42,281 bases of DNA from a virus. The position numbers and the translations under genes are program-made. The stretch covers positions 1 through 42,281 of IMG/VR virus record IMGVR_UViG_3300038701_001252; one strand, written 5' to 3'. The stretch's first letter is position 1, and every line of letters starts with the position of its first letter. The notes beneath the pieces were generated by a model. The model was given only the letters and a program-made list of their open reading frames with translations, ran no database searches and was not told the origin of the DNA. Shown one piece after another: positions 3,557 through 41,421 of this stretch.

Positions 3557-3973
3557 ATGGATATTAATTTAAATGAGAAGATAACAGACAACTTTAAGTG
3601 GCGTGAAATGCTTTACTGCCCTCAGTGGAATGTTCACGCATTTCCCCTTTCACAAATGCACAAGGAAAATATTATTGATGTTTGTGAAACACTTGAAAAT
3701 ATTCGAGACATTCTTAACTCCCCCCTTAAAATAACAAGTGGATACAGGCCGAGAAGGTATAATCAGTTGATCGGCGGTGCCGTGGAGTCGTATCACATGC
3801 AGGGATTAGCTGCAGATTTTATCCCAACAAAAGCCTCCGTTCATAAGGCTAAAATTGCACTAATTGAGTTTTTGCCTGACCTTCAATGCCGAATGGAAGA
3901 TAATGGCAAAGGCGGCTGGATTCATATTGATTTAGCAGCGCCTGGGCCTGGTGGTAGATTCTTTAAGCCATAG
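3557..3973 (+). CDS. Endolysin, M15-family peptidoglycan peptidase
   Basis: 138 residues with all hallmarks of the Peptidase_M15_3 fold: SGYRP (about 61-65), the zinc motif SYH-x-x-G-x-A-x-D with His80 and Asp87, and W-I-H-I-D with His123. These are the residues expected to bind zinc and cleave peptide cross-links or stem peptides in the cell wall (D,D-carboxypeptidase or L-Ala-D-Glu endopeptidase type). There is no signal peptide, so release should need a holin. It is the last gene of the rightward lysis cassette and meets the leftward lipoprotein gene tail to tail with no gap and no visible terminator. Confidence 0.88.
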   Translation: MDINLNEKITDNFKWREMLYCPQWNVHAFPLSQMHKENIIDVCETLENIRDILNSPLKITSGYRPRRYNQLIGGAVESYHMQGLAADFIPTKASVHKAKIALIEFLPDLQCRMEDNGKGGWIHIDLAAPGPGGRFFKP

Positions 3974-9506: not shown

Positions 9507-9743
9507 ATGAAATTAACACCAGCAGATTACGTCATTAAAATTTTCGGGGGGGTCAGGGCAACAGCCAGAACACTCAACAGAACCCCCTCAACCATCTCAA
9601 AATGGAGGCATTATCAGTCTAAGTATGCACCAAAAGGCACTCTTCCAAGCAATGCAATACCTCAAATATTAAAAAAAGCACAAGAATTACAGCTAGATAT
9701 AACGGCTGAGGACCTTATTGAGGGGCGTGAGGTTGTTGAGTGA
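9507..9743 (+). CDS. Cro/YdaS-like helix-turn-helix regulator
   Basis: 78 residues. The HTH spans about 10-34 (VIKIFGGVRATARTLNRTPS, TISKW), followed by a loop and a PSNAIPQILKKAQELQL helix, the layout of small Cro- or YdaS-like phage regulators in which GG-x-R-A-x-A marks the first helix. It is the first gene of the rightward replication operon and is preceded by a dyad overlapping its RBS, which suggests autoregulation. No opposing CI-like repressor is visible. Its end overlaps the helicase start (GTGA). Confidence 0.75.
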   Translation: MKLTPADYVIKIFGGVRATARTLNRTPSTISKWRHYQSKYAPKGTLPSNAIPQILKKAQELQLDITAEDLIEGREVVE

Positions 9744-11125
9744 GTATTACCCTTAGGCCATATCAGTCTGATATTATTGATGAAACTCGTGATCTTATGC
9801 GCAGAGGGCATAAATCCATACTCATCCAGTTAGCTACAGGTGGCGGCAAAACGGCCATTGCCTCCTATATGCTAAAGCGTGCTGCTGAGAAAGGCCACAC
9901 AGCCTTTTTTAACTGCCATCGCAGGGAGCTTATAAAGCAGTCTCTCAGCACCTTAGATAAATTCGATGTTCCATGTGGCACAATCGCGGCTGGCTGGCCT
10001 TACAAAAAGTTCAATAAAGTATTCGTAGCCTCAGTCCCATCACTTGGCCGCCGCCTTAAAAGAGTCCCAAAACCATACTTAATATTCTGGGATGAGGCTC
10101 ACTACATCGGGGCTAAAACGTGGACTAATATATTTAAGTCATATCCAGATGCTTTTCACGTCTTGCTAACAGCAACACCAACACGCCTGGATGGTAAAGC
10201 CCTTGGTAACTATGCCTCTGCTATGGTTAGAGGGCCATCTATGAGAACTCTTATTGATCAAGGGCACCTGGCTGACTATAAAATATATGCTCCATCAAAA
10301 CCAGATCTCTCTGGTGTCCGCAGACAGATGGGTGATTTTAGAAAATCTGATCTCGATGACATCCTCATGAAGCCCACCATTGTTGGTAATGCTCTTAATG
10401 AATATAAAAAGTTTTGCTCTGGTAAAAAAGCTGTTGCGTTTTGTGTGTCCAGAAAACACTCACGTTTTGTAGTGGATTGCTTTAATCAATCAGGCATCGC
10501 GGCCAAACATGTAGATGGTGAAACTCCAACTTTTGAGCGCGATCAGGCTATTAGAGATTTCGCTGCTGGAAAAATTAAAGTTATGTCAAATGTGGACTTA
10601 TTTGGCTGTGGTTTTGACCTTCCCAGCATGGAGGCAATCATAGGTCTGCGACCAACTCAGTCATTATCTTTATATTTACAACAAGCTGGCAGGGTATTAA
10701 GACCTGCCCCAAACAAAAAACACGCTATAATTTTAGATCACGTAGGAAATGTTGAGCGGCATGGTTTGCCTGATGAAGATCGTGAATGGAGTTTGAAGGG
10801 GAGGTCCACCTCTAAAAACTCTAAACAGGAGCTAAACACGCCTGTTCGTATTTGTCAGTCATGCTTCGCCGCTCAACACCCTACACCTGTTTGCAAATAC
10901 TGTGGGGTTCCGTTCGAGGTTAAACATCGTGAAGTGGATGAGGTTGACGGCGAACTCTCTGAAATAGATACAGCTAAATTTAAAAGGAAAGCCCGATCTG
11001 AGCAAGGCAAGGCTCAAACCTTAGATGACCTCTATAAATTAGGTAAGCAGCGTGGCTATAAAAACCCCAGGGGCTGGGCCAAGCACATTTTTAATGCACG
11101 CCAGAGAAAGCGGTTAGGTGTTTAA
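9740..11125 (+). CDS. Superfamily 2 DNA/RNA helicase with zinc finger
   Basis: 461 residues, GTG start overlapping the previous stop by 4 nt. Helicase motifs in order: Q-like RPYQ (about 7-10), Walker A ATGGGKT (33-39), DEAH (about 118-121), TATP (about 144-147), and motif VI QQAGRVLRP (about 314-322), so the motor is complete. A C-x-x-C ... C-x-x-C knuckle follows at about 371-390. This Rad25/RecQ-like type is common in phage replication modules and moves along DNA using ATP. It is followed by a VRR-NUC nuclease and a primase, so it probably acts in replication or recombination. Confidence 0.88.
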   Translation: MSITLRPYQSDIIDETRDLMRRGHKSILIQLATGGGKTAIASYMLKRAAEKGHTAFFNCHRRELIKQSLSTLDKFDVPCGTIAAGWPYKKFNKVFVASVPSLGRRLKRVPKPYLIFWDEAHYIGAKTWTNIFKSYPDAFHVLLTATPTRLDGKALGNYASAMVRGPSMRTLIDQGHLADYKIYAPSKPDLSGVRRQMGDFRKSDLDDILMKPTIVGNALNEYKKFCSGKKAVAFCVSRKHSRFVVDCFNQSGIAAKHVDGETPTFERDQAIRDFAAGKIKVMSNVDLFGCGFDLPSMEAIIGLRPTQSLSLYLQQAGRVLRPAPNKKHAIILDHVGNVERHGLPDEDREWSLKGRSTSKNSKQELNTPVRICQSCFAAQHPTPVCKYCGVPFEVKHREVDEVDGELSEIDTAKFKRKARSEQGKAQTLDDLYKLGKQRGYKNPRGWAKHIFNARQRKRLGV

Positions 11126-14287: not shown

Positions 14288-14325
14288 AGACACGATGCGT
14301 TGAGATTGTGTCTACCGTTTTTTTT
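14288..14325 (+). terminator. Rho-independent terminator after the primase gene
   Basis: Stem AGACACGAT (14288-14296) and ATTGTGTCT (14305-14313), 9 bp with one G-U pair and an 8-nt loop, followed by ACCG and eight T (14318-14325). It would end transcription of the rightward replication operon. The stem is A/T-rich and so of moderate strength. Confidence 0.65.
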
Positions 14326-14565
14326 GGGGGGTTAGTAGCCTGTTAGTAGTCATGGTTAGTAGCCAGGATACTACTGTAATACCACCTACTTATAACATAT
14401 ACTACTATGTCTACTAACTATATATATAAACTTTAGGTAGGGTGTACATGCATAAATGGGTTGTTACCCTGTTAACAAACATGCATTTGCGTTTTGCTCC
14501 TGGGCATATTATAGGAAAAGTAAGTAGCCTTAGTAGTCAGTAGCCAATAACGAGGAGTGTAAATT
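14326..14565. other. Candidate replication origin: iterons and AT-rich DNA
   Basis: The 307-bp gap after the primase gene holds no gene. After the terminator it carries copies of GTTAGTAGYC: 14331-14340, 14342-14351, 14355-14364 (direct), 14409-14418 (inverted, GTCTACTAAC), and CTTAGTAGTC at 14529-14538 flanked by partial TAAGTAGCC (14521-14529) and AGTAGCC (14539-14545). Between them is an AT-rich stretch (14391-14434) and an inverted repeat TTGTTA/TAACAA (14461-14466 and 14473-14478) flanked by two ACATGCAT. Iterons, an easily melted segment and a neighbouring primase gene are the usual parts of an origin. An operator array is the alternative. Confidence 0.5.
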
Positions 14566-14958
14566 ATGAAATTTAAGGGTAAACAATTCTGGATTTACGG
14601 CGACATATTAGATCACCTGTTTGAACATCATGGATGGAATAAAGAGAAAGATTTTGGTACATCTTTACGCATTGCACTAGGCATACCTGAGCCAGCACCT
14701 AAGGAAAGCAAGAGAGTTAAGAAGGATCGACTAGATCCTATGGGGCCACTAGATCCACTCGACGATGAGCGCCGCAAATACCACTTCCATGACATGTCTG
14801 TTGGTGATTCAAAAATATTCCCACATCACGTCACTAAGTATGGGGTTGTAAACAATCGTACAATTATCCAGGCCGCGAAAAGATATGGTCGCCGCAACAA
14901 CATGAAGTTTAGACATAAGTTTTTAGTGGAGGGCCTTCGCGTGACGCGTGTGGTTTAA
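14566..14958 (+). CDS. Conserved-looking phage protein, possible DNA-binding
   Basis: 130 residues with GAGGAG before ATG. The N-terminal part is a helical domain (LDHLFEHHGWNKEKDF ... SLRIALGIP), the middle is a charged linker with DPMGPLDPLDD, and the C-terminal 60 residues (HDMSVGDSKIFPHHV ... AAKRYGRRNNMKFRHKF) are basic and look like a small nucleic-acid-binding domain found in phage early proteins. Lying next to the iteron region, it might bind there. I cannot assign a known function. Confidence 0.6.
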   Translation: MKFKGKQFWIYGDILDHLFEHHGWNKEKDFGTSLRIALGIPEPAPKESKRVKKDRLDPMGPLDPLDDERRKYHFHDMSVGDSKIFPHHVTKYGVVNNRTIIQAAKRYGRRNNMKFRHKFLVEGLRVTRVV

Positions 14959-14970
14959 TCGCCGATATAA

Positions 14971-14997
14971 TAAAAAAAACCCCGACCGAAATCGGGG
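14971..14997 (-). terminator. Terminator oriented leftward
   Basis: CCCCGA (14980-14985) and TCGGGG (14992-14997) form a G/C stem with a 6-nt loop. On the minus strand the stem is followed by eight T (the A run 14972-14979 on plus). On the plus strand no T run follows. It should therefore stop leftward transcription, although genes on both sides are rightward. Confidence 0.6.
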
Positions 14998-15091
14998 CTA
15001 CAACTATTGAACATCCTTAGCAAGGTACTTCTGGCCCTGTAATGATAATAAACTTTTTGCTTAAATCAAATAAATATTTAATATTATATCT

Positions 15092-15610
15092 ATGATAAAG
15101 CATTTCCCAGACTCTGAGAAAAACCTGCTAAGCCTCCAGGCCAATCCTGAGGAGACAACATCCACACTCTATCGGCATATAGCCTCTGGTGGCGATATCA
15201 TGGGGCTATGCGATATCTTTAAGGTTAACTACGCAGACTTTATGTTTTGGTTCAGGAAGGATAGTGAGAGATCTAAGGTCCTAGACACAGCCTTTACTGA
15301 TCGTAATGAGTGGTTCAAAGAGACTGTGCTCTCAGAGGCCCGTAAGCTGGCTACATTTGACGCTCGTGAGGTATTTGATGATGAGGGCAAGGTTAAAGAT
15401 CCAAGCGAATGGAGCGATGCTGTGGCCTCAATGGTGGCTAACATGTCTGTAACTTATGATGGGGATGGGAATCCCACATATAAAGTAACCATGTGGAAAA
15501 AAGAGAAGGCTCTTGAATTACTCGGCAAGTCAATCAAGATGTTTATTGATCGCATCGATCATTCTGGGAAGATGAGTCTTGAGGATTTAGTGACAAAAAG
15601 CTACGAATAG
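15092..15610 (+). CDS. terS: Terminase small subunit
   Basis: 172 residues. The N-terminal half (about 1-60) is a helical HTH-like DNA-recognition region. The C-terminal half matches phage small terminases: FDAREVFDDEGKVKDPSEWS, then KVTMWKKEKALELLGKSIKM, FIDRIDHSG, SLEDLV. It should recognise the packaging site and regulate the large subunit. No good SD precedes ATG 15092, and I see no better start. Unusually, the large-subunit gene is not next to it: a 4.5-kb adhesin block intervenes. Confidence 0.78.
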   Translation: MIKHFPDSEKNLLSLQANPEETTSTLYRHIASGGDIMGLCDIFKVNYADFMFWFRKDSERSKVLDTAFTDRNEWFKETVLSEARKLATFDAREVFDDEGKVKDPSEWSDAVASMVANMSVTYDGDGNPTYKVTMWKKEKALELLGKSIKMFIDRIDHSGKMSLEDLVTKSYE

Positions 15611-15628: not shown

Positions 15629-15934
15629 TTGGGGAATAGCACTAAAATACATGCGCTTAATGAAACGGCTGACTCCAATATTACAGCTGAAACTATCGGC
15701 ACAGAGCGCGGCATAAACGTAGCCCCAATGGCGTTGACTACCAGGGTTGACACTACTTCTGAATCAGACGTTATTTATATCGGTAGCGCAAGCCCTGGGT
15801 CCGCAACATCCGAAGCCGTTTGGCAGATAATAAAAATAACAATTTCTAGCGGTGATGTTTCTATAATATACGCAAATGGCGAAAAGAATTTTAATAATAT
15901 TTGGGATAGTAGAACGGGGCTTAGTTATTCATGA
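15629..15934 (+). CDS. Small tail-associated protein, unknown
   Basis: 101 residues from TTG 15629, chosen for the G-run leader 6 nt upstream. The sequence (DVIYIGSASPGSATSEAVWQ, then YANGEKNFNNIWDSRTGLSYS) resembles small beta-rich proteins encoded just before fibre or tail-tip genes in many phages. Its stop overlaps the start of the 1143-aa fibre-like gene by 4 nt, so the two are probably coupled. It begins a block with more C- and G-ending codons than its neighbours. Confidence 0.6.
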   Translation: MGNSTKIHALNETADSNITAETIGTERGINVAPMALTTRVDTTSESDVIYIGSASPGSATSEAVWQIIKITISSGDVSIIYANGEKNFNNIWDSRTGLSYS

Positions 15935-18900
15935 GTGATTTTAAATTAGTTAAACTACTAGACGAGCTCGGGATAAACATAAACATCGACAACGATGGCT
16001 TGCTTCATAAATTCGATGCCACCGCCGATCCGACAGTTACCGACGATACGGCTGCGGGTTACGGAGTCGGTTCTCGCTGGGTGAATGTCACAAGCGATGA
16101 GGCATTTGTGCTTGTTGACGCGACAAACGGTGCGGCTGTATGGCAGAGCACTACCTCTAGTAGTACAGATATAAATGCTAAGGTATCTAGTAACGACACT
16201 ACGACTGGTTTTTTAGAAGACAAAATAGTAGCTGGCACGAACGTTACTGTGACTACGTTGAATGACGGCGCTAACGAAACGCTAGAGATTAGCTCTTCGG
16301 GCGGTGGCGCCTCACCACTAACGACTAAGGGTGATCTATACACTTACGACACGGACGACGCGAGGCTGGGTGTTGGTTCTAACGGCGAAGTGTTAATCGC
16401 TGACTCTGCCGAAACGACAGGTCTTCGCTGGGGTGCCGTTTCAACAACTGATGAGCTTCTTAAAGTTTCAAGTAACGACACCACAGCCGGATACTTAGAA
16501 GATAAAATTGTAAGCGCAAACAATAGAATCTCTGTCTCCACTTTGAATGACGGCGGCGATGAGGATCTACAGCTTACATTAAATGAAGGGAATATCGATC
16601 ATGATGCCCTTACGAATACACATAATCTTACGACAGATATTGACCATAATACGATAACTAATAATCACAACCTGACTACAGATATAGATCATGACACAAT
16701 CACCAACACGCATAACTTAACTACTGATATAGATCACAATGCTTTAACGAATTACGATGTAGGTCAGCACAGAGTAATAAATGACGCTGGTACAAGCGCG
16801 ACAGAGCTTTGGTCTGCGAGCAAGATAGACACCGAGCTTTCTGGTAAAGCCGACACTTCACACACTCATAGCACCTCGGACATAACATCTGGCACGTTTG
16901 CTGACGCAAGGATCTCTGAGAGTAGCGTCACTCAGCACGAGGCCGCTATAGATCATGATGCCTTATCTAACTTTGTGGCGAATGAGCATATTGATTGGAC
17001 GCAGGCGGGTGCAGGCACCATACACGCATCTAACTATGTTGATAATGACACAATTTATACGCATCCAAATCACACAGGCGAGGTTACATCAACTGGTGAC
17101 GGTGCGCAGGTCTTAGACCCAACTGCTATATCAAATAAAACATTAGTTACAGCCGTTTCAGGGGACATGGTTTTAATAGAAGACGCGACAGACGGACTAT
17201 TAAAGCGTGTTAATGCCAATGACTTTTTAAGTGGCGGCGGGATTACAACTATTGACGCTGCTACAGATACTGATTTCACATCACTGGCAGAAGGCGAAAC
17301 TATGCGCTGGGACAACAGTGCTAGTGATTGGATAAACACAAGCCAGATATTAATCGGCGATGACACTATTGCCCTGACTCCAACGGCTCCAGGCACTAAC
17401 CCTTACTCTGTGGTTGTAGACGGCGCTGGCACTAACTTAGTTGAAAACGCAATATTTGAAAATAACATAACTGACTTTTGGAGTGCTGAACTAACTCCCA
17501 CGCTTACTTACAACACTACTGAGCAGTACATAGGTAGCGGGTGTTTAGAAATAGATACTAACGTTATAAACGAGGGCGTAAGAAGCGATGCTATTACGGT
17601 TAGCTCAAACACTGATTATGTTTATTCTATCTGGATCAAGGGAGCAGTAGGCGACGAGGACGTTTATATCGGCGTGGACTTAGACTCTACGGGTATTTTA
17701 AACGCTGTCTCAGACAATGTTTTTGCGGACAGCTTTGTAATTATCAATCCTGTCACCACTGGCTGGCAGAGAGTATTTTTTCCATTCACAACGGGCGGCA
17801 GTGATACAAGTGCTGAGCTCTTGATTCGATCAAGATCTGGTGACACTCAAAAGTTTTATGTGGACGCCGTACAGCTAGAGCAGAAGGACGCTCCGGCATC
17901 AAGTGACGAAGTGAACGCCCCGACCACCTTTATATCTGGTGACATGGGCGAGGGGTATAGTTGGTCTGGAACGGCTTATAACAGCACGGCCTCAAGAACT
18001 GCGGGCGCTAAGTTCCTATCCCCAATTACGGGCGGCAGGGGAAACTTTGCCATAAGAGAAGACGGGACTATAGCGAGATTTTTTGCAGACGCTGGTGAGA
18101 ACCAGTGGGGTGACTTTGGGAATGTAATTGAGCCTAACTTTCCGTTTACATTTAATGGCAACATCAAGAGTAACGTAACGACGAGCGGTGTGTCGGCAGG
18201 TGTTGTGAACATACAAAACCTAGCAGACGGTAATGCCCTGAGTGTTTATTCAGAAAATACCACAGCATCAACCTTGGTTGTCTCGGGGCCATCGGCTACT
18301 TCGGGAAATATTTTAGCAATATTTGCTCCGGCGGACCTAACAAACTTTACTGGCTCCTTTTTGACCTTCAGTGGTAAAGCCCAAGACGCAGAAATGTACC
18401 AATTCAAAAGGGACTTTGTTCAAAACGGAGCCTTAAGTTTTCAGTATGGAAAAGATGTAATCACTTATGGCGGGGGTTCGCAAACATCTACGGCTAGGGT
18501 TTTGGCTGGCACTGTTTCGGCGACCAATGGTAGCCCCACAGTTACTGGTTCTGGGTTTTTAACAGACTTTAGGCGTGGCCAAGCCATAGATATAAACGGA
18601 ACGATTTACTCAATCGCCTCAATAGAAAGTGATACGTCTTTAACTCTTACTAGTAATTATGGTCAAGCAACCAATGCGGCCCGCCCATATGATGGCTTAA
18701 CCGCGCAATATGCCCCACCGACTCTACAGCTTGAGGGCGCTTACGCTTACCACGGATCTACAGGCACAATCACCGGGGATTTTCTTTACGGTGTTTATGC
18801 CTCGGGCGGCAACGGACATTTAAGAGTTTTAAAGTCTTCTACTCGCGGCGCTGCGGCCAATCCAACTGCCGATGGCCAGGGTGACGGTATCGTCACATCT

Positions 18901-19362
18901 AGAGTAGTTGATAACTCAACAACTAGTATTTCTGCAAGCTCATCTGAGACCACGGTTGTGTCTGGCTACACGATACCAGCTTACGAGTTAAGAGACGGCA
19001 CGATGTTTAGGCTTAAGTTTTCAGGCAGCATGACAACGCTTGCTACGTCTACGACTATAACCTGGCGATTGAAGCTTGGTGGTAACACTATACTTACCTC
19101 ACCAGCTCAACAATCTGGCTCTACTGCGGCCTTAGAGTTTAAGGGAGAGATTGAGTTTGTTGGGACCTCAGACACAGCACAGAGATCCTCTATAAGCGTT
19201 ATGGGAAAAAACACTGGCACAGGCGCAGCTCTTACACACGGCATGGTTCACTATGAAACAGGCTCGGTTGATATGAGAATTGATAGAGCGCTTACGCTTA
19301 CAGCTCAGTTCTCGGATGGCTCTAGCATGGATGTTTACTTTAAAACACTGGAGATAATGTAA
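15931..19362 (+). CDS. Fibre-like adhesin / receptor-binding protein
   Basis: 1143 residues of mostly beta, fibre-like sequence. Two related segments with KVSSNDTT-x-G-(F/Y)-LEDKIV start near residues 82 and 177. Three 15-residue repeats of IDH(D/N)xxTNxHNLTTD and a partial fourth follow (about 223-250+). A carbohydrate-binding-module-like jelly roll lies at about 500-650 (WIKGAVGDEDVYIGVDLDS, FYVDAVQLEQ), a GTVSATNGSPTVTGSG module near 859, and a beta-rich C-terminal head from about 1020. It lacks the T7 gp17 N-terminal domain, so how it attaches is unclear; the 101-aa partner may help. It is the centre of an adhesin block between the terminase genes. Confidence 0.75.
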   Translation: MSDFKLVKLLDELGININIDNDGLLHKFDATADPTVTDDTAAGYGVGSRWVNVTSDEAFVLVDATNGAAVWQSTTSSSTDINAKVSSNDTTTGFLEDKIVAGTNVTVTTLNDGANETLEISSSGGGASPLTTKGDLYTYDTDDARLGVGSNGEVLIADSAETTGLRWGAVSTTDELLKVSSNDTTAGYLEDKIVSANNRISVSTLNDGGDEDLQLTLNEGNIDHDALTNTHNLTTDIDHNTITNNHNLTTDIDHDTITNTHNLTTDIDHNALTNYDVGQHRVINDAGTSATELWSASKIDTELSGKADTSHTHSTSDITSGTFADARISESSVTQHEAAIDHDALSNFVANEHIDWTQAGAGTIHASNYVDNDTIYTHPNHTGEVTSTGDGAQVLDPTAISNKTLVTAVSGDMVLIEDATDGLLKRVNANDFLSGGGITTIDAATDTDFTSLAEGETMRWDNSASDWINTSQILIGDDTIALTPTAPGTNPYSVVVDGAGTNLVENAIFENNITDFWSAELTPTLTYNTTEQYIGSGCLEIDTNVINEGVRSDAITVSSNTDYVYSIWIKGAVGDEDVYIGVDLDSTGILNAVSDNVFADSFVIINPVTTGWQRVFFPFTTGGSDTSAELLIRSRSGDTQKFYVDAVQLEQKDAPASSDEVNAPTTFISGDMGEGYSWSGTAYNSTASRTAGAKFLSPITGGRGNFAIREDGTIARFFADAGENQWGDFGNVIEPNFPFTFNGNIKSNVTTSGVSAGVVNIQNLADGNALSVYSENTTASTLVVSGPSATSGNILAIFAPADLTNFTGSFLTFSGKAQDAEMYQFKRDFVQNGALSFQYGKDVITYGGGSQTSTARVLAGTVSATNGSPTVTGSGFLTDFRRGQAIDINGTIYSIASIESDTSLTLTSNYGQATNAARPYDGLTAQYAPPTLQLEGAYAYHGSTGTITGDFLYGVYASGGNGHLRVLKSSTRGAAANPTADGQGDGIVTSRVVDNSTTSISASSSETTVVSGYTIPAYELRDGTMFRLKFSGSMTTLATSTTITWRLKLGGNTILTSPAQQSGSTAALEFKGEIEFVGTSDTAQRSSISVMGKNTGTGAALTHGMVHYETGSVDMRIDRALTLTAQFSDGSSMDVYFKTLEIM
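16597..16755 (+). repeat. Protein-level tandem repeat in fibre gene
   Basis: Three tandem 45-nt units and a partial fourth encode IDHxxxTNxHNLTTD. Between units 2 and 3, 13 of 15 residues are identical but only 4 of those 13 use the same codon. The regularly spaced histidines could bind a metal along the fibre shaft, as HxH motifs do in T4 gp37; this is inference. Confidence 0.75.
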
Positions 19363-20102
19363 TGGCAATAGACTTAGATCAGCTGGAAATAAGAATTGGC
19401 GAAAAGTCTGGAGCGGGGCGAACGAACCCTATCCGTTACGATGGGCCATCACTTACGGATGTATCTATTGTTGATGCCAAGGTAAAAAGTAGCCCTTGCG
19501 TTGCGATGAGGTGGCTAAAGGACAACTCTGACTATTCATTTGAAACCTTTGTTAGGCTCTCAGATTCTTCGGGCTGGCAAGGCGTTGTAATAAATAATAA
19601 GAACGACGGTTCTCTTTATAAAAAAATAGAAGTACCAATGAGGGGTGGCGAAGCATCAAGCCCACCGAGCCAGATATATATTAACAATTGGAAAATACTT
19701 TCTGAGGCCATCGACACCGTGAGTGGTGATTTAGATTTTGATGCTATGGAGACTCGGTTACTTCAAGACGTTGGTCAGGGCAATAACCCTATAGGTTACG
19801 GCGGCGGCTCGCTTGCTGGCGTGCCACTGGCTCAGGCTGGGGTGATGCGGAGTCCATGTCGAGCTCTTAGGTGGATGAGTGATAACTCTGAATATAGATA
19901 TGAAACGTTGGTTAAACTAAGTGACTTAGGTGGATCTCAGGGCATGTATGTTTACAGCAAAGAAGACGATTCATTAATTAGAAGCATAGGGAACCCAATG
20001 GGCGGCGGCCCGAACGACGATCCAGAGAGAAGAATATATAAAGATAATACGGCGATTATACTACAGGGTGTTTCATTAATTTACGAAAGTTTACAGGGGT
20101 AG
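19362..20102 (+). CDS. Tandemly duplicated two-domain protein, adhesin block
   Basis: 246 residues made of two copies of one domain of about 110 residues with a period of about 120: residues 5-113 and 126-233. Shared positions include NPI-x-Y, SPC-x-A-x-RW, DNS-x-Y-x-(F/Y)-ET, (R/K)LSD-x-x-G, a P-M-x-GG loop and a final IY-x-(N/D)N. Both copies keep one cysteine (46 and 166). The start overlaps the fibre gene stop (TAATG). I do not recognise the fold. Context suggests a fibre-tip, chaperone or receptor-binding subunit. Confidence 0.65.
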   Translation: MAIDLDQLEIRIGEKSGAGRTNPIRYDGPSLTDVSIVDAKVKSSPCVAMRWLKDNSDYSFETFVRLSDSSGWQGVVINNKNDGSLYKKIEVPMRGGEASSPPSQIYINNWKILSEAIDTVSGDLDFDAMETRLLQDVGQGNNPIGYGGGSLAGVPLAQAGVMRSPCRALRWMSDNSEYRYETLVKLSDLGGSQGMYVYSKEDDSLIRSIGNPMGGGPNDDPERRIYKDNTAIILQGVSLIYESLQG

Positions 20103-33498: not shown

Positions 33499-36400
33499 AT
33501 GGCATCTGAATATGAAGAAATTGCTTTAACTTTGTTTGATAAAGAAGCGCAGGCTAGTGAGAACGTAAACACTCAGCCTGCGCCACAACAGGAGTCGAGT
33601 ACCGAATATGAATCGATTGCTACTGATCTATTCGGTAATCCAGAGCAGAACTTTAAACAATCTGCATTTGCTGCATCTAGGAAAGACTCTGGACGGATGG
33701 CTGAGGCTGTTAAGCTATCCAAGGATTTTAACTTACCGCCCGAATTTGTTGAGAGAAATTTAGACTCATTAAGAGAAAAAAGGTCTCAGCAAACTGATTT
33801 AGATTACGAGCGAATTGCAATGGAGTCTCCAGAGCTTTCTGACTGGTTAAGCAATCCAGTGAATGCGACTGTTGGCAAGAATGATGTAAATAATTTGCAG
33901 AAGGTTACTAAAAATAAAAATAGAATAAAGCCATACAATGATGAAGAGTGGCTAGATGCTGGTGGAGCTTTTGAGAGTGGCATGAATAACTTAGCCTCGA
34001 GCAGTGTTCATGTGGCTCATGCCTATGGGATGATTGATGCTGATACTGCAGCTGAAATTGTTGCTGCTAGAAATAAGGCGGCTCAAGATGCTAGAGAGCA
34101 GGCTCCTAGTTTTGCAAAAGAATATTCAAGAGTTTTGGAAAAAGAAGGTGGCGACATTGATAAGGCTGTTAACCAGTTTTTAGGTGGGGCTGAAGAGTAT
34201 AGGAAAGGCGAGATATTTAATGCCTTAAAAGAGTTCACAGTTGGTGGAGCCAAGACTGTTGGAGAGACTTTAGATTTTATTGGTGCAGCTACTGTGATGA
34301 GGCCGAGGGGTTTTATTAGATCAAGCATTGAGCAGGTGGCTAATATGGCTCCTAGTTTAGTAACTGGGTTTGCTGGGGCTAAGGTGGGCGCTACAGGTGG
34401 TGCTGCTATTGGTTCTGCGGCTCCTGGTATCGGGACTGCTGCTGGAGCTACAGTTGGGGGAATAGGCGGGTTTGTTGCTGGATCGTTTGCTGGTGGAGTT
34501 GGTGTTGAAGTTGGTGCATGGTTTAACCAAGAGCTTTCTGAGCGCGGCATAGATATAACGAATGCTCAGGAAATTAAGCAGGCCTATTCAAATAAAAAAT
34601 TAATGGCTCAGATTTTAAAAGAAGCTGAGAGAAAAGGTGTTACCACAGCTGGTGTTGATGCTGCATTTAACCTGTTCGCCGGTAAATTTTTAAAAGGCGC
34701 TAAGGGTGCAAAACTGTCTGGAAAAGCTAAGGCTGTTGCGAAGGAAGCTACTGTTCAAACAGTTGGTGAATCGGCTTCAGAATTTGCAGGCCAGGTCGCA
34801 GCTCGTGATGGTGACTTAGGTAAAGTAAGTTATGGAGACGTTGTAGCTGAAGGTATTTTAAGTTTAGGAACATCTGCTGGTGACGTTGTAATTGGTGGAG
34901 CTGTAAGATCCGTTAGGGAACAATACAGTCAGGATACAGTTGATGCCGCTGAGGAAATTTCAGTTGATAGAAACAGGGCTATGCAGGCTATTGAAGAGTC
35001 TCATGCTATTAAAGAGATGGCTGATGCTGCTATTGATTCTAAGACTCGTGAATTATCCCCTGAGGTATTTTCTGACTTAGTTGGAGATGAGCAGCAAGTT
35101 TATTTTCAAAATAATGAGTGGGATGAATACTGGAAATCTAAAGGCGAGTCACCAGTTAAAATGGCAGAAGAGCTGTTAGGTATAGATAGCTATAATGACG
35201 CGGTGGAGACTGGGCGTGACATTGAAATCGCTGCTAGTGAGATATTATCTAAGCTTGAAGACAAAGAGCAGTTTGATGATCTCATGGGAATACTCAGAAC
35301 TCAGCCTGATGGTATGACCTACACTGAGGCCAGTGAGTTTTTACAATCCATGCCAGAGACTATGAAAGAGTTATCTGAGGAGGCTGTTGAAAAGCAGGAC
35401 TTTATTGATCAAGCTGAAAAGTCAGCTCGTGAAATTCAGAAGCAAGTTGAGCAACAGTTGGTCGCGGCTGGTAGGAGTAAAGTTGAAGCGGCTCCTATTG
35501 CAGAGTTTTATAGAGTTTTAGGTATTCGTAACAGTCAAGATCCTCAGGAGTTGTTTAAAAAGTATGGGTTGAATATTCAGAAGGTTGATGGGGATGTTAC
35601 GGCTAGTGGGGATGTTTTATATCAGAAAGAAACTGATCCGCTAGGATTCTATTCTAAATTAAACAGTACCGTTGTAGAAATGGACTTCAAGTCAATCCCA
35701 AGTAAAGACCTAGCAAGCCGTTTAAAGAAAACCGATGGCCTTAAAAAAGAAGAGCTTGAGTGGACTGGTGTTATTGACTGGCTTGAGGCTGAATCTCGTA
35801 AGGTTAGTAAGGAAGAAGTCGCTGAGTTTTTAAATGGTGGTGGGGTTCAGATTGAGGAGGTTACTTTATCTGAGGCTAGTGAGTCTGATGAGCGCGGTGA
35901 ATACGACATAAGAGAAGTTGAAGATGATGATGGGGGAATTGTTTATGCTGTTGAAGATTGGGCTGGAAATGATATTGAAGTATTTGATAACGAAACTGAA
36001 GCTGAAGATTATATAGAAAGTCTTGTAAGCGAGGCTATGCCTACAAAATTCGAGGACTACTCCCTCCCAGGCGGCGAGAATTATCGTGAGGTTTTGTTGA
36101 CGTTGCCTCCTGTTGAGGTTGATCCAGGAACACTGAGCAGGCTCGAAGTAGACTATGAGGATATGCAGGCTCAAGCACAGAGAGCTGCAAAAGAAAAGGC
36201 CGATATAATCTTAGAGTTTTCAACTTTGTTTGCAAAAGAAAATGCAGACATGAGTGATGAAGCTCGCAGGATGATGTTTAAAGAGGTCAGGAATAAGATT
36301 GAATTTGCTGGTGAGGGAAGAAATCGACCAGAGGTTGACGAAAATCAACAGAGGTCTGTTGATGAATTTATGGAGTCTGATCAGTTCAGCGATGAATTAA

Positions 36401-39400
36401 AGCAGCTTTTTATGGAGGCTGTCATTGCCACAAAAAAGGAAACTGGCCTTAGCTTTCAAGAATATACCATGAGCAGCGAATTAAGAGATGCAAGGAAGAA
36501 TAAAAGCGCAAAGAACTACACCTCCTCCCACTGGGACCAAGAAAACGTCCTAGCCCACATGCGCTTAAGTGATCGTGTAGATAGTAATGGAAAGAAAACA
36601 TTATTGATTGATGAGATACAGAGTGACTGGCATCAGGAGGGGCGGAAGAAGGGGTATAAACAAGCTTCGATTGATGCTGATGTTATTGAATTTCTAAGAA
36701 ACGAAACAGATGGATTGCTTGATAAATTAATTGATAAGTATAGCTTAGAAGGTCCTGACTATAGAAGTAAAATTCAGGATATAGCCAATCAACAACGTGA
36801 TGGAGTCCCAAACGCCCCCTTCAAACAATCAGATGCCTGGGCCATGCTCGTATTTAAACGCGCCTTAAGAATGGCAGCAGAGCAAGGTTATGATGCTGTA
36901 GCGTGGACGCCTGGGGATGTTCAGGCTGAGCGGTATGATTTAAGTAAAAAGATAAGTAAGGTTTCTTACGATTCGCAAACAAAAACATTGGTGGCCGTTG
37001 ATCTAAATGGAACTCCTGTTATGACAGAATCGGTAGAAGAAAATAAAATTGACGATTATGTTGGGAAAGATGTTGCTGAAAAACTAGTAAATTCTGAGCC
37101 TAATGAGAGTGGCATTAAATCTATTGAGGGCGATGGCCTTAAAGTCGGCGGCGAAGGCATGAAAGCCTTCTACGATAAAATGCTACCTAAAGCTGTAGGT
37201 AAGTATATTAAGAAGCTTGATAAGTCTGCGAAGGTGGGGGTTGATTCTGTTGATGCTGGTGAGCGTGAGATAAGCGCAAGAGATGAAAAGTATGACGAAC
37301 TCAGGAAAGACATTAAAGGATTTTCGATTGATGACTTTAAAGTTGATGAATCAATATCTGACGAAGATAGAACTGTTTATAAGGTGCCAGCCTCTAATAG
37401 ATATTATACAGTTCAGCACTACAACAATGATAGTGTGGTTTACACAAATGAAGATGCTGATATCTATGGCGAGAGATTCAAGTCTGTAGATAAGTTTAAA
37501 GAAGTAATGTTTGGTGACATGACAGACAGGTCGGCCACCCAGCAAGTCTGGCACCTCCCAATAACAGAAAAACTAAAAGCAGAAGTCCTATCAGGACAGA
37601 CATTATTTCAAGATGACAAAAAGGGTTTCATAACAAAAGGCCCAACAGATTTCTTTAATAACATTACATTATTGAGAAAGGCAGATAAGTCTACTTTCTT
37701 GCATGAGTCTGGGCATTACTTTTTAGAAATACTAAAGGATATGTCAGCGCTTGATAATACTAGCCAAGAGATTAAGGATGACTTTCAAGGCATTCTTGAG
37801 TGGCTAGGTGTTGAGTCAGCAGATCAGATAGAAGTTGAGCATCATGAAAAGTGGGCGCGTGGTTTTGAGGCTTACTTAAGAGAGGGCAAGGCTCCATCTG
37901 ATAAATTAAGAAAAGCGTTTAATACGTTTAAGGTTTGGTTGACTCAGGTTTATAAGAACTTAAGGCAGCTTAATGTTGAGCTATCTCCAGATGTTAAAGA
38001 CATTATGAATAGAATGCTAGCGACTCAGGGGGAGATTGACGCCGCCAGAAAAGAGATGCGTGATGAGCCTCTGTTTACAGATCCAATAGCTGCAGGGATG
38101 AGTGAAGCTCAGGCTCAAAAATATCGTGATGCTCAGGGCATGGCTATGATCGCAGCTCAAGAGAAGCTACAAAAGAAACTCATGCGTGATCGTGAGAGAA
38201 AATTAAAATTAAAAAAGAAACCTATAAGAGATGAGATAACAAAGCAGGTAAATGAAGAGCGCGTATTTGATGCCATAAGTATCCTTAAAAAGGGTGTTCA
38301 TGCTGATGGTGCTGAATTGGGTGATGGTATCTCTGCCATTAAACTTGATAAGTCTGAGTTTGAAAAAAGGTTCCCACAGTTTAAAGGTAATCGAAATTTT
38401 TACGGCATGTTCTCATCTGAGAATACAGTCCCTATGGATATGGCAGCATCGATGTTAAATTACGCTAGTACTCAGGATATGGCTGTAGAAATAGCAAACG
38501 CTCCTAAGAAGCAAGACTATATTAACTCGCTGACTGAACAGAGGTTAAGTGAGATAGCTGATGATTTATTGAATAAGGATGTGATCGCAGTTGAGGCGAT
38601 GATGGACTACCATAATGAGGATCGAATGAAAAAGATCCGCATGGAGTATGAGCACATTGCCAGCAACAATAAGGGTGTTTCTAGGGAGATCACTCGTAGG
38701 GTTTCAAAAAGGCCGACTCCTCAGAAGCAAATTAAAGATCTTGCGATTAAATCTATTAATAATATGCCAGTTGGTAAATTAAAGCCTAACACATATCGAT
38801 TAGCTGAGAGACGTTTTGCAAAACTCGCAGGCCAGGAGTTAGCCAGGGGTGATGTTCAGGCAGCATTTGAAGCTAAGGAAAAAGAGCTATTCAATTATGA
38901 ATTATATCGTGCTGCTGTAGAGGCTAAGCAGACTGTTGATAAAAAGGTTAAAGATACTAAGAAGTTTTTTAAGAAGGATGAGGATTTAGCTAAAACTCGT
39001 GAGCTTGATTTTATAAATGCAGCTCGTGCAGTTCTGTCACGCTATGGTATTGGCAGAGCTAAGAATGATCCAATGGCTTACCTTGGTAAGATGAAGGAGT
39101 ATAACCCTGATGCTTATGAGACTGTAAGTTCTATTATTGTCGGTGTTATGGACGATCCAGATAACTATAAGAATATTGAGTATTCTAAGTTTAAGGATGT
39201 GATGGAGTCTATCCAGGCATTATGGGATTTATCTCGTGATGTTAAGACTGTTGATGTTGACGGCGTAAAGTATGAAATATCAAAAGCTGTAGAAGAAATG
39301 TCAGCTGATATGCAGAAATTTATTAAGCCTAAAGCTAAAGAAAAATATAACAGAACGGCTACTGATCTTGAGAAGATGAAGGTTGGTCTTTTAAGCGTAA

Positions 39401-41421
39401 AGGCTTTAGTTCAAAGATACGAGTCCTGGATTGACATTATGGACCTTGGTGATGTCAGGGGTTCGTTTAGGAAGTTTTTATTTACTAATATTTCTGAGGC
39501 TGTTGATAAGTTTGAAGTTCAGAACACTCAGTATAAGAAGCGAATACTAGAACTATCTGCACCAATAAAAGAAAATATGGATCTGACTAAGCCTATTCAG
39601 GCTGATGAGATTGGTTTTGAATTTAAAAACAAAGCTGAATTATTGGGAGCATTGATACACACTGGGAACGAATCGAACCTTAAGAAATTATTAGTTGGTT
39701 ACGGATGGGGCGAGCTTGATGAGAATGGAGACTTGATCCGAAGTAATTGGGATAAGTTTATTTCTCGAATGCAGTCTGAAGGTGTATTAACAAAAGAAGA
39801 TTATGATTATGTTCAGTCTCTTTGGGATCTGATGGAGGAGATTAAGCCTCAGGCTCAGAAGGCCCATAAGAAGGTGTTTGGATTTTATTTCGATGAGATT
39901 ACCCATAAAGAATTTGAAACCCCATTTGGTACCTATAGAGGTGGATATGCACCAGCCAAGGTTGATCCATTCGCTGTTACTGATATAGCTCGTAGGTCTG
40001 AGCTTGAGGAGTTTACAAAAAGCAATACAGCGTTTAACTGGCCAGCTGCTGGTGGTCGTGGGTTTACTAAATCTAGGGTTGAAAATTTTAATAAGCCATT
40101 AAATTTAAACATCGGTTTGGTTGGCAGGCATGTAGAGGACGCATTAAGGTTTGCTATTGTTAAGCCAGCAGTTGTTGACGCTGCTAAAATATCAGTGAAC
40201 CAAGAGTTTAAAACAGCGATGGGTGAGTTAGATCCTGTGGCGATTGATCAGATTATAAAGCCTGCTCTAAATAGAGCTGATAAAAACACTATACAGAATA
40301 CTGATCCTAGCAAGAACAGGGTTATGGGAGGCATTGGTAGGTTTCTTAAAAGTAGCGCCAGTGCTCAATTAATGTTCGCAAACGTGGTGAATACAGTGGA
40401 GCAGTTTGCAGGTTTTGGAATATCGGCTACAAAAATTAGCCCTCGGTATATAGCAAGGTCTGGGTTTAAATTTATGTCGAACCCTAAGCAGATGTCTGCT
40501 GACATTGCCGAATTATCTCCAGCTATGAGAACACGCTCTGATGAGCAGATGTTTGAGATTCAGAAGCAAGCTCGAGATATATTTAGTGAGAAAAACAATT
40601 ATACTAAAATGAAAGACTGGCTTACTAAACACACATATTTTCTACAGGCCTTTACTCAGAACATTGTTGATAGCATCACATGGCAGGCTAGTTATGATGA
40701 GTCTGTGGCCTCTGGATTAACTAACAAGGAAGCTATTAGAAAAGCTGACAGTGACGTTAGAACTACTCAATCATCGAGAAGATCGTTTGATGTTAGTAAT
40801 TTAGAGACCAATGAGACTCTGCAGTTCTTCCAGATGTTTATGAACTTTTTTAATATGCTGGCTAATGTAAATCATGCCAATTTCAGCAAGCTTTATTATG
40901 AAGATATTGGAATGAAAAAGAAATTCGCTAAGGGTTTATATTTATATATGGCAGGGTTTGCTGGTGTTGCCATATTTAGTGGGGCGCTCAGGAAGATGGC
41001 CGCTGGTGGTTTAGATGCTGATGATGATGATGAGTATTTAGATGATCTTTATGATGTATTAATTGGATCACAGATTGATCTAGGGCTAGCTATGATGCCT
41101 GTCGCGGGGCCAGCTATAAATGCTGGTATAAATAGGTATAACGATAAATGGTATGATGATCGAGTTTCAGCATCACCTGCAATGTCTGCTTTAACAACTG
41201 TTGTAGGGGCACCTGCTGGATTATTCGACAAGGATGGAGACCTTAGGAAGCAAGGTGTGCGGGATGGATTTACGGCACTTGGTATTTTAACTGGTATGCC
41301 ATTAAGGCCAATATCTAAGCCAATTACATATTTAATGGACGTAAGTTCAGGTGATGCTGATCCAACTGGGCCTATTGACTTTACGCGTGGTCTAGTTACA
41401 GGAAAACCTGGAGTTGAGTGA
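33499..41421 (+). CDS. Giant polyvalent ejection protein with zincin motif
   Basis: 2640 residues, 19% of the genome. Disordered N-terminus; glycine-zipper membrane-like region at about 283-340 (GFAGAKVGATGGAAIGSAAP); helical linker; polyvalent-protein associated domain at about 850-1375 with blocks YSLPGGENYREVLLTLP, NVLAHMRL, EIQSDWHQEGRKKGY, VPNAPFK and GEGMKAFYDKMLP; a zincin-like HESGH at 1402-1406; coiled-coil regions; and a C-terminal large polyvalent-associated domain ending in a hydrophobic segment (LYLYMAGFAGVAIFSGAL). By position it replaces T7 gp16, but I see no lysozyme or transglycosylase motif. It is probably injected with the DNA, carrying several effector activities. Five sub-segments have unusual codon use (see findings). 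Confidence 0.8.
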   Translation: MASEYEEIALTLFDKEAQASENVNTQPAPQQESSTEYESIATDLFGNPEQNFKQSAFAASRKDSGRMAEAVKLSKDFNLPPEFVERNLDSLREKRSQQTDLDYERIAMESPELSDWLSNPVNATVGKNDVNNLQKVTKNKNRIKPYNDEEWLDAGGAFESGMNNLASSSVHVAHAYGMIDADTAAEIVAARNKAAQDAREQAPSFAKEYSRVLEKEGGDIDKAVNQFLGGAEEYRKGEIFNALKEFTVGGAKTVGETLDFIGAATVMRPRGFIRSSIEQVANMAPSLVTGFAGAKVGATGGAAIGSAAPGIGTAAGATVGGIGGFVAGSFAGGVGVEVGAWFNQELSERGIDITNAQEIKQAYSNKKLMAQILKEAERKGVTTAGVDAAFNLFAGKFLKGAKGAKLSGKAKAVAKEATVQTVGESASEFAGQVAARDGDLGKVSYGDVVAEGILSLGTSAGDVVIGGAVRSVREQYSQDTVDAAEEISVDRNRAMQAIEESHAIKEMADAAIDSKTRELSPEVFSDLVGDEQQVYFQNNEWDEYWKSKGESPVKMAEELLGIDSYNDAVETGRDIEIAASEILSKLEDKEQFDDLMGILRTQPDGMTYTEASEFLQSMPETMKELSEEAVEKQDFIDQAEKSAREIQKQVEQQLVAAGRSKVEAAPIAEFYRVLGIRNSQDPQELFKKYGLNIQKVDGDVTASGDVLYQKETDPLGFYSKLNSTVVEMDFKSIPSKDLASRLKKTDGLKKEELEWTGVIDWLEAESRKVSKEEVAEFLNGGGVQIEEVTLSEASESDERGEYDIREVEDDDGGIVYAVEDWAGNDIEVFDNETEAEDYIESLVSEAMPTKFEDYSLPGGENYREVLLTLPPVEVDPGTLSRLEVDYEDMQAQAQRAAKEKADIILEFSTLFAKENADMSDEARRMMFKEVRNKIEFAGEGRNRPEVDENQQRSVDEFMESDQFSDELKQLFMEAVIATKKETGLSFQEYTMSSELRDARKNKSAKNYTSSHWDQENVLAHMRLSDRVDSNGKKTLLIDEIQSDWHQEGRKKGYKQASIDADVIEFLRNETDGLLDKLIDKYSLEGPDYRSKIQDIANQQRDGVPNAPFKQSDAWAMLVFKRALRMAAEQGYDAVAWTPGDVQAERYDLSKKISKVSYDSQTKTLVAVDLNGTPVMTESVEENKIDDYVGKDVAEKLVNSEPNESGIKSIEGDGLKVGGEGMKAFYDKMLPKAVGKYIKKLDKSAKVGVDSVDAGEREISARDEKYDELRKDIKGFSIDDFKVDESISDEDRTVYKVPASNRYYTVQHYNNDSVVYTNEDADIYGERFKSVDKFKEVMFGDMTDRSATQQVWHLPITEKLKAEVLSGQTLFQDDKKGFITKGPTDFFNNITLLRKADKSTFLHESGHYFLEILKDMSALDNTSQEIKDDFQGILEWLGVESADQIEVEHHEKWARGFEAYLREGKAPSDKLRKAFNTFKVWLTQVYKNLRQLNVELSPDVKDIMNRMLATQGEIDAARKEMRDEPLFTDPIAAGMSEAQAQKYRDAQGMAMIAAQEKLQKKLMRDRERKLKLKKKPIRDEITKQVNEERVFDAISILKKGVHADGAELGDGISAIKLDKSEFEKRFPQFKGNRNFYGMFSSENTVPMDMAASMLNYASTQDMAVEIANAPKKQDYINSLTEQRLSEIADDLLNKDVIAVEAMMDYHNEDRMKKIRMEYEHIASNNKGVSREITRRVSKRPTPQKQIKDLAIKSINNMPVGKLKPNTYRLAERRFAKLAGQELARGDVQAAFEAKEKELFNYELYRAAVEAKQTVDKKVKDTKKFFKKDEDLAKTRELDFINAARAVLSRYGIGRAKNDPMAYLGKMKEYNPDAYETVSSIIVGVMDDPDNYKNIEYSKFKDVMESIQALWDLSRDVKTVDVDGVKYEISKAVEEMSADMQKFIKPKAKEKYNRTATDLEKMKVGLLSVKALVQRYESWIDIMDLGDVRGSFRKFLFTNISEAVDKFEVQNTQYKKRILELSAPIKENMDLTKPIQADEIGFEFKNKAELLGALIHTGNESNLKKLLVGYGWGELDENGDLIRSNWDKFISRMQSEGVLTKEDYDYVQSLWDLMEEIKPQAQKAHKKVFGFYFDEITHKEFETPFGTYRGGYAPAKVDPFAVTDIARRSELEEFTKSNTAFNWPAAGGRGFTKSRVENFNKPLNLNIGLVGRHVEDALRFAIVKPAVVDAAKISVNQEFKTAMGELDPVAIDQIIKPALNRADKNTIQNTDPSKNRVMGGIGRFLKSSASAQLMFANVVNTVEQFAGFGISATKISPRYIARSGFKFMSNPKQMSADIAELSPAMRTRSDEQMFEIQKQARDIFSEKNNYTKMKDWLTKHTYFLQAFTQNIVDSITWQASYDESVASGLTNKEAIRKADSDVRTTQSSRRSFDVSNLETNETLQFFQMFMNFFNMLANVNHANFSKLYYEDIGMKKKFAKGLYLYMAGFAGVAIFSGALRKMAAGGLDADDDDEYLDDLYDVLIGSQIDLGLAMMPVAGPAINAGINRYNDKWYDDRVSASPAMSALTTVVGAPAGLFDKDGDLRKQGVRDGFTALGILTGMPLRPISKPITYLMDVSSGDADPTGPIDFTRGLVTGKPGVE

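Follow-up and report, generated by a model that had tools for sequence, protein, structure and literature searches.

The question raised by this locus is what role, if any, a dense cluster of short repeats plays between the gene of a primase-helicase and a small orphan gene in a viral genome. The window, by which we mean the whole stretch of DNA analysed (42,281 nucleotides), is the IMG/VR virus contig IMGVR_UViG_3300038701_001252. It carries virion and packaging genes of its own (portal, major head, tail and terminase); the portal is epsilon15-like, and TerL has about 43% identity to the TerL proteins of Xanthomonas phage CP2 and related phages, while a DNA-level similarity search against phages gave no match to the window. 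RecT and YqaJ are encoded leftward, and Cro-like, DEAD-box helicase, VRR-NUC-like (our own reading) and Toprim+VapE proteins rightward. The small Cro-like protein (9507-9743) has a carph-isopro domain (NF046037, 1.2e-11) and is encoded at the point where the genes diverge in direction. Elsewhere in the window, 3557-3973 gave a weak match, far under the cut-off, to the peptidoglycan endopeptidase MepK (1.8e-4) and is possibly an endolysin, and a 2640-aa ORF fills the right end (33499-41421), residues 1-834 of which match no NCBIfam model. Judged from its sequence, the region 14330-14545 is best explained as a putative phage replication origin of the SaPI/PICI type, of the kind served by a self-loading helicase, a reading to which we give a probability of about 85%.

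The first-pass annotation had described three direct copies of GTTAGTAGYC, one inverted copy and a second cluster of related units. The direct copies were confirmed as exact matches (starting at 14331, 14342 and 14355, with a spacing of 11 and 13 bases), and the second cluster was recovered as one-mismatch copies at 14520, 14529 and 14536. An inverted copy with one mismatch does lie at 14409-14418, but it is part of a block of four inverted units. AGTAG occurs ten times within 14334-14543 (about 210 bases) in a strict block order of three direct units, four inverted units, a repeat-free gap and three direct units (Table 1). The array begins 72 bases past the VapE stop codon and its right block ends 20 bases ahead of the start codon of the 130-aa gene. 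The unit forms only this one cluster in the window, a record that is possibly incomplete, and no other pentamer is as densely clustered anywhere in it.

Table 1. Positions of the proposed origin elements and the features around them in the window
Feature	Positions	Strand	Remarks
Toprim + VapE primase-helicase gene, 802 aa	11850..14258	+	Proposed self-loading initiator
Intrinsic-terminator-like hairpin with T run	14288..14325	+	Hairpin 14288-14313; between primase gene and array
Outer-left iteron block, three units	14330..14364	+	AGTAG at 14334, 14345, 14358
Inner-left iteron block, four inverted units	14366..14418	-	CTACT at 14371, 14386, 14402, 14411
Repeat-free core, A+T 65%	14419..14519		Proposed melting region; starts with TATATATATAA; 13-base alternating purine-pyrimidine run
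Right iteron block, three units	14520..14545	+	AGTAG at 14523, 14532, 14539; opposite orientation to inner-left block
130-aa orphan gene	14566..14958	+	Array neighbour, downstream
Second terminator-like hairpin	14978-14999	minus-strand reading	Past the 130-aa gene

That such a cluster could be a functionless product of chance or of low-complexity sequence is hardly credible. One further exact copy of the 10-mer is found elsewhere in the window (at 1216), and tandem copies were met in 9 unrelated viral contigs, none of them near a VapE gene; the sharing of the 10-mer with other viruses was put down to coincidence. Against chance, 200 dinucleotide shuffles gave a mean maximum of 3.6 AGTAG units and a highest value of 6, none reaching the observed ten, and the density of the 8-mer CTACTAAC (four copies per 100 bp) was reached by 0 of 60 such shuffles. 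The strict orientation of the blocks and the repetition of the layout in other loci speak against it as well. Not every property ascribed to the region held up equally. The AT-rich segment is present and its excess is real, but modest in the core (A+T is 65% within the gap, 74% across 14365-14430 and 58.7% overall), and the central inverted repeat, considered as a cruciform, showed no excess folding stability (z-score 0.16). GC skew had also been proposed as a check, with a minimum elsewhere named as counting against an origin; the cumulative minimum does lie away from the array, at 10311, but skew follows gene strand here and is weak, non-decisive evidence.

The array was said to follow a Toprim/VapE primase gene, and this was borne out by Pfam matches of the 802-aa protein to VapE-like (5.8e-76) and Toprim (8.3e-5) families. 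Its VapE half shows homology with the self-loading Rep helicases of SaPIs, matching 7pds both by sequence (E 1.2e-43) and by structure (Z 26.7 over 286 residues, the C-terminal domain included). The 7pds entry, a structure with dsDNA, is listed as PriRep1, 'Similar to D. nodosus vapE', which we take to be the SaPI1 Rep protein, the PDB listing being silent on this. No close relatives were found by a search with the single primase sequence. In the AF2 model (pLDDT 84.8) the C-terminal end consists of two helices (HTH) and a two-stranded beta wing, and we propose to read this part (about residues 694-770) as a winged helix and candidate iteron reader. In the mechanism that we envisage, the winged helix would bind the AGTAG iterons, and two oppositely oriented helicase rings would assemble on the inverted blocks flanking the core and melt it. 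Bidirectional replication would then start from the melted segment, for which the fused Toprim domain would make the primers.

If the array belongs with the VapE gene, it might be expected past such genes in other genomes. Scanning by VapE alignment yielded 80 viral loci (best segment up to 48% identical). In a non-redundant set of 34 loci, an array was scored where at least five exact copies of a 7-mer per 400 bp lay just past the VapE gene and equalled the maximum of the locus. Arrays were found in 18 of the 34, the window counted, or in 17 without L025, which looks like low-complexity repeats. The units differ from locus to locus (GGTAACA in L014, GTAGAAC in L015, GGTTACA in L017, AGGTGGC in L021, GGGTAAC in L023, TGGGACA in L027, GGAAACA in L031 and GGTGACA in L090) and the layouts resemble that of the window: four minus and three plus units, a gap of 103 and three minus units in the window; two plus and three minus, 92 and two plus in L014; two plus and five minus, 59 and four plus in L017; and one minus, two plus and three minus, 73 and six plus in L023. 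In three further loci (L009, L080 and L091) iteron-like arrays were seen farther away, 2-3 kb past the VapE gene (GGTGACA seven times, GGTAACA ten times and GTCCCAA eight times, respectively).

Since the hypothesis grew out of this first panel, the fairer test is a second panel of 80 loci from bacterial genomes, independent of the idea's formation, which left 62 non-redundant loci. Here an array was present in 41 of the 62 and was strictly the densest cluster of the locus in 35, compared with 7.0 expected from the share of windows alone. Orientation across the gap could be scored in 36 arrays, which had two or more units to either side of the largest gap; when the two nearest units per side were compared, 31 arrays were inverted, two had the same orientation and three were mixed; by our own expectation, independent random orientations would give an inverted arrangement in one of eight. 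No array was detected at the post-VapE position in about half of the loci of the first panel and about a third of those of the second. The architecture of an array past the VapE gene is thus conserved among phages and prophages, and since the loci of the second panel are non-independent through shared descent, this result shows conserved architecture and not function by itself. With the layout recurring 3' of VapE genes and the homology to SaPI Rep, the earlier suggestion of an origin beside the primase has become the best-supported reading.

The surroundings of the array could also suggest a role in transcription, as an operator or promoter region that is bound by a phage regulator and controls the late genes (terminase and virion) together with the 130-aa gene. 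The array is located between two terminator-like hairpins (three such hairpins in the region vs 1.0 expected from shuffles), with the 130-aa gene next in line downstream, and a Q-like gene is often near the same place in related phages, being found between primase and array in L026-L028 (our own reading). Such a role is nevertheless unlikely, as no sigma-70-like promoter was found within the array, and opposed blocks around a gap of 50-115 bp suit an origin better. Moreover, the arrays stay with the VapE gene whereas their downstream neighbour varies; by our own gene readings it is terS-like in L015 and L016 and an unrelated gene in L017. As for the 130-aa protein, family and relative searches, the locus panel included, detected no family or relative, no evidence was found tying it to the array, and its single-sequence structure model was unusable (pLDDT 43.6). 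The role once suggested for it was not upheld, arrays occurring without it, and its gene probably lies outside the origin proper.

The terminase small subunit gene, which starts at 15092, about 550 bases downstream of the array, raises another alternative, namely that the array is a pac site at which DNA packaging is initiated by the small terminase. Pac sites can lie near the small terminase gene. This we hold to be very improbable, given that the arrays follow VapE genes whatever comes next and also occur in a PICI with a D5-type Pri-Rep, and that in one clade a residue of VapE matches the unit. The small terminase gene is itself separated from the large one (20326) by three ORFs at 15629-20102, one of them of 1143 aa and fibre-like in look, an unusual gap for a packaging pair.

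The clade in question consists of the Pseudomonas-type loci (L027-L086, the GHW[GS]KPEQ group), in which a wing residue, R or K, matches a base of the unit in 53 of 53 loci, R going with TGGGAC in 35 and K with TAGGAC or TTGGAC in 18. This column was the best of all columns, the next reaching a normalised mutual information of 0.78. On the tree three changes of R/K are needed, and since one change alone is forced by well-supported branches, shared ancestry may account for the agreement. The clade is distant from the window, and the R/K rule could not be carried over, the aligned residue there being E by our own reading. A partial Mantel-type correlation of the unit with the C-terminal domain vs the core gave 0.308 vs -0.149, values that are small and confounded. 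Tentatively, and at somewhat under even odds, the unit may be free to drift, being read by a few residues of the winged helix in the initiator's C-terminal domain, and origin specificity might then be readable from the protein sequence.

The PICI origin is known to be situated immediately 3' of the initiator gene and always has an AT-rich region with an iteron set on either side, and the pri-rep-ori of EcCICFT073 is functional in vivo (PMC6092414). SaPI origins likewise follow rep directly on its 3' side and have two iteron sets around an AT-rich core, and the C-terminal domain of SaPI Rep recognises these iterons, apparently as two hexamers (PMC7581432). Examining EcCICFT073 as a yardstick, we found GGTAGA blocks past Pri-Rep (two minus, one plus and three minus units, then, across the gap, two plus, one minus and two plus). 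The window shares with EcCICFT073, SaPIbov1 and SaPI1 the order of an initiator helicase gene followed by two iteron sets around an AT-rich core: its array lies immediately 3' of the initiator gene, its opposed blocks enclose an AT-richer gap (about 101-107 bases), and its initiator has homologues in the SaPI Rep helicases. The window differs in its unit, AGTAG, and in its primase part, which is Toprim, whereas the primases of SaPIbov1 and SaPI5 are of the AEP family (PMC7581432); the Pri-Rep of EcCICFT073 is D5-type and not VapE. Whereas a PICI is a satellite, the window represents a full phage that has genes for portal, capsid and terminase. It fits the origin type but, having its own virion genes, is no PICI, and dependence as a satellite on the virion proteins of a helper was ruled out. 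The statement that no phage origin with this unit had been described is true of the unit, but the origin type is already a known one (PICI/SaPI).

More remote parallels can be drawn. A lambda-type origin, with iterons inside the initiator gene, was ruled out, all ten units lying past the VapE stop and outside the initiator coding sequence. Like the window, satellite phage P4 has a primase-helicase fusion (alpha) and short iterons. P4 depends on ori and crr as two distinct cis sites, whereas the window, whose record is possibly incomplete, has the unit in a single cluster. The PICI Pri-Rep is distantly homologous to P4 alpha (PMC6092414). In SCCmec, binding assays showed the Cch2 helicase to bind, through its C-terminal domain, the direct repeats that immediately follow its gene (PMC7581432), but there are only three iterons, the helicase is D5-type and the element is a mobile cassette rather than a phage. 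The Streptococcus thermophilus phage Sfi21 has a short noncoding origin element in its replication module, as given in PMC6356513 citing Foley 1998, and the likeness drawn here is confined to this.

The locus provides a concrete candidate origin for the large and mostly untested group of phages bearing VapE. It links the replication of phages with that of satellites, and the two may compete for origins or share them. In addition, the covariation of a single residue with a single base in one clade opens origin recognition to a single-substitution approach in vitro.
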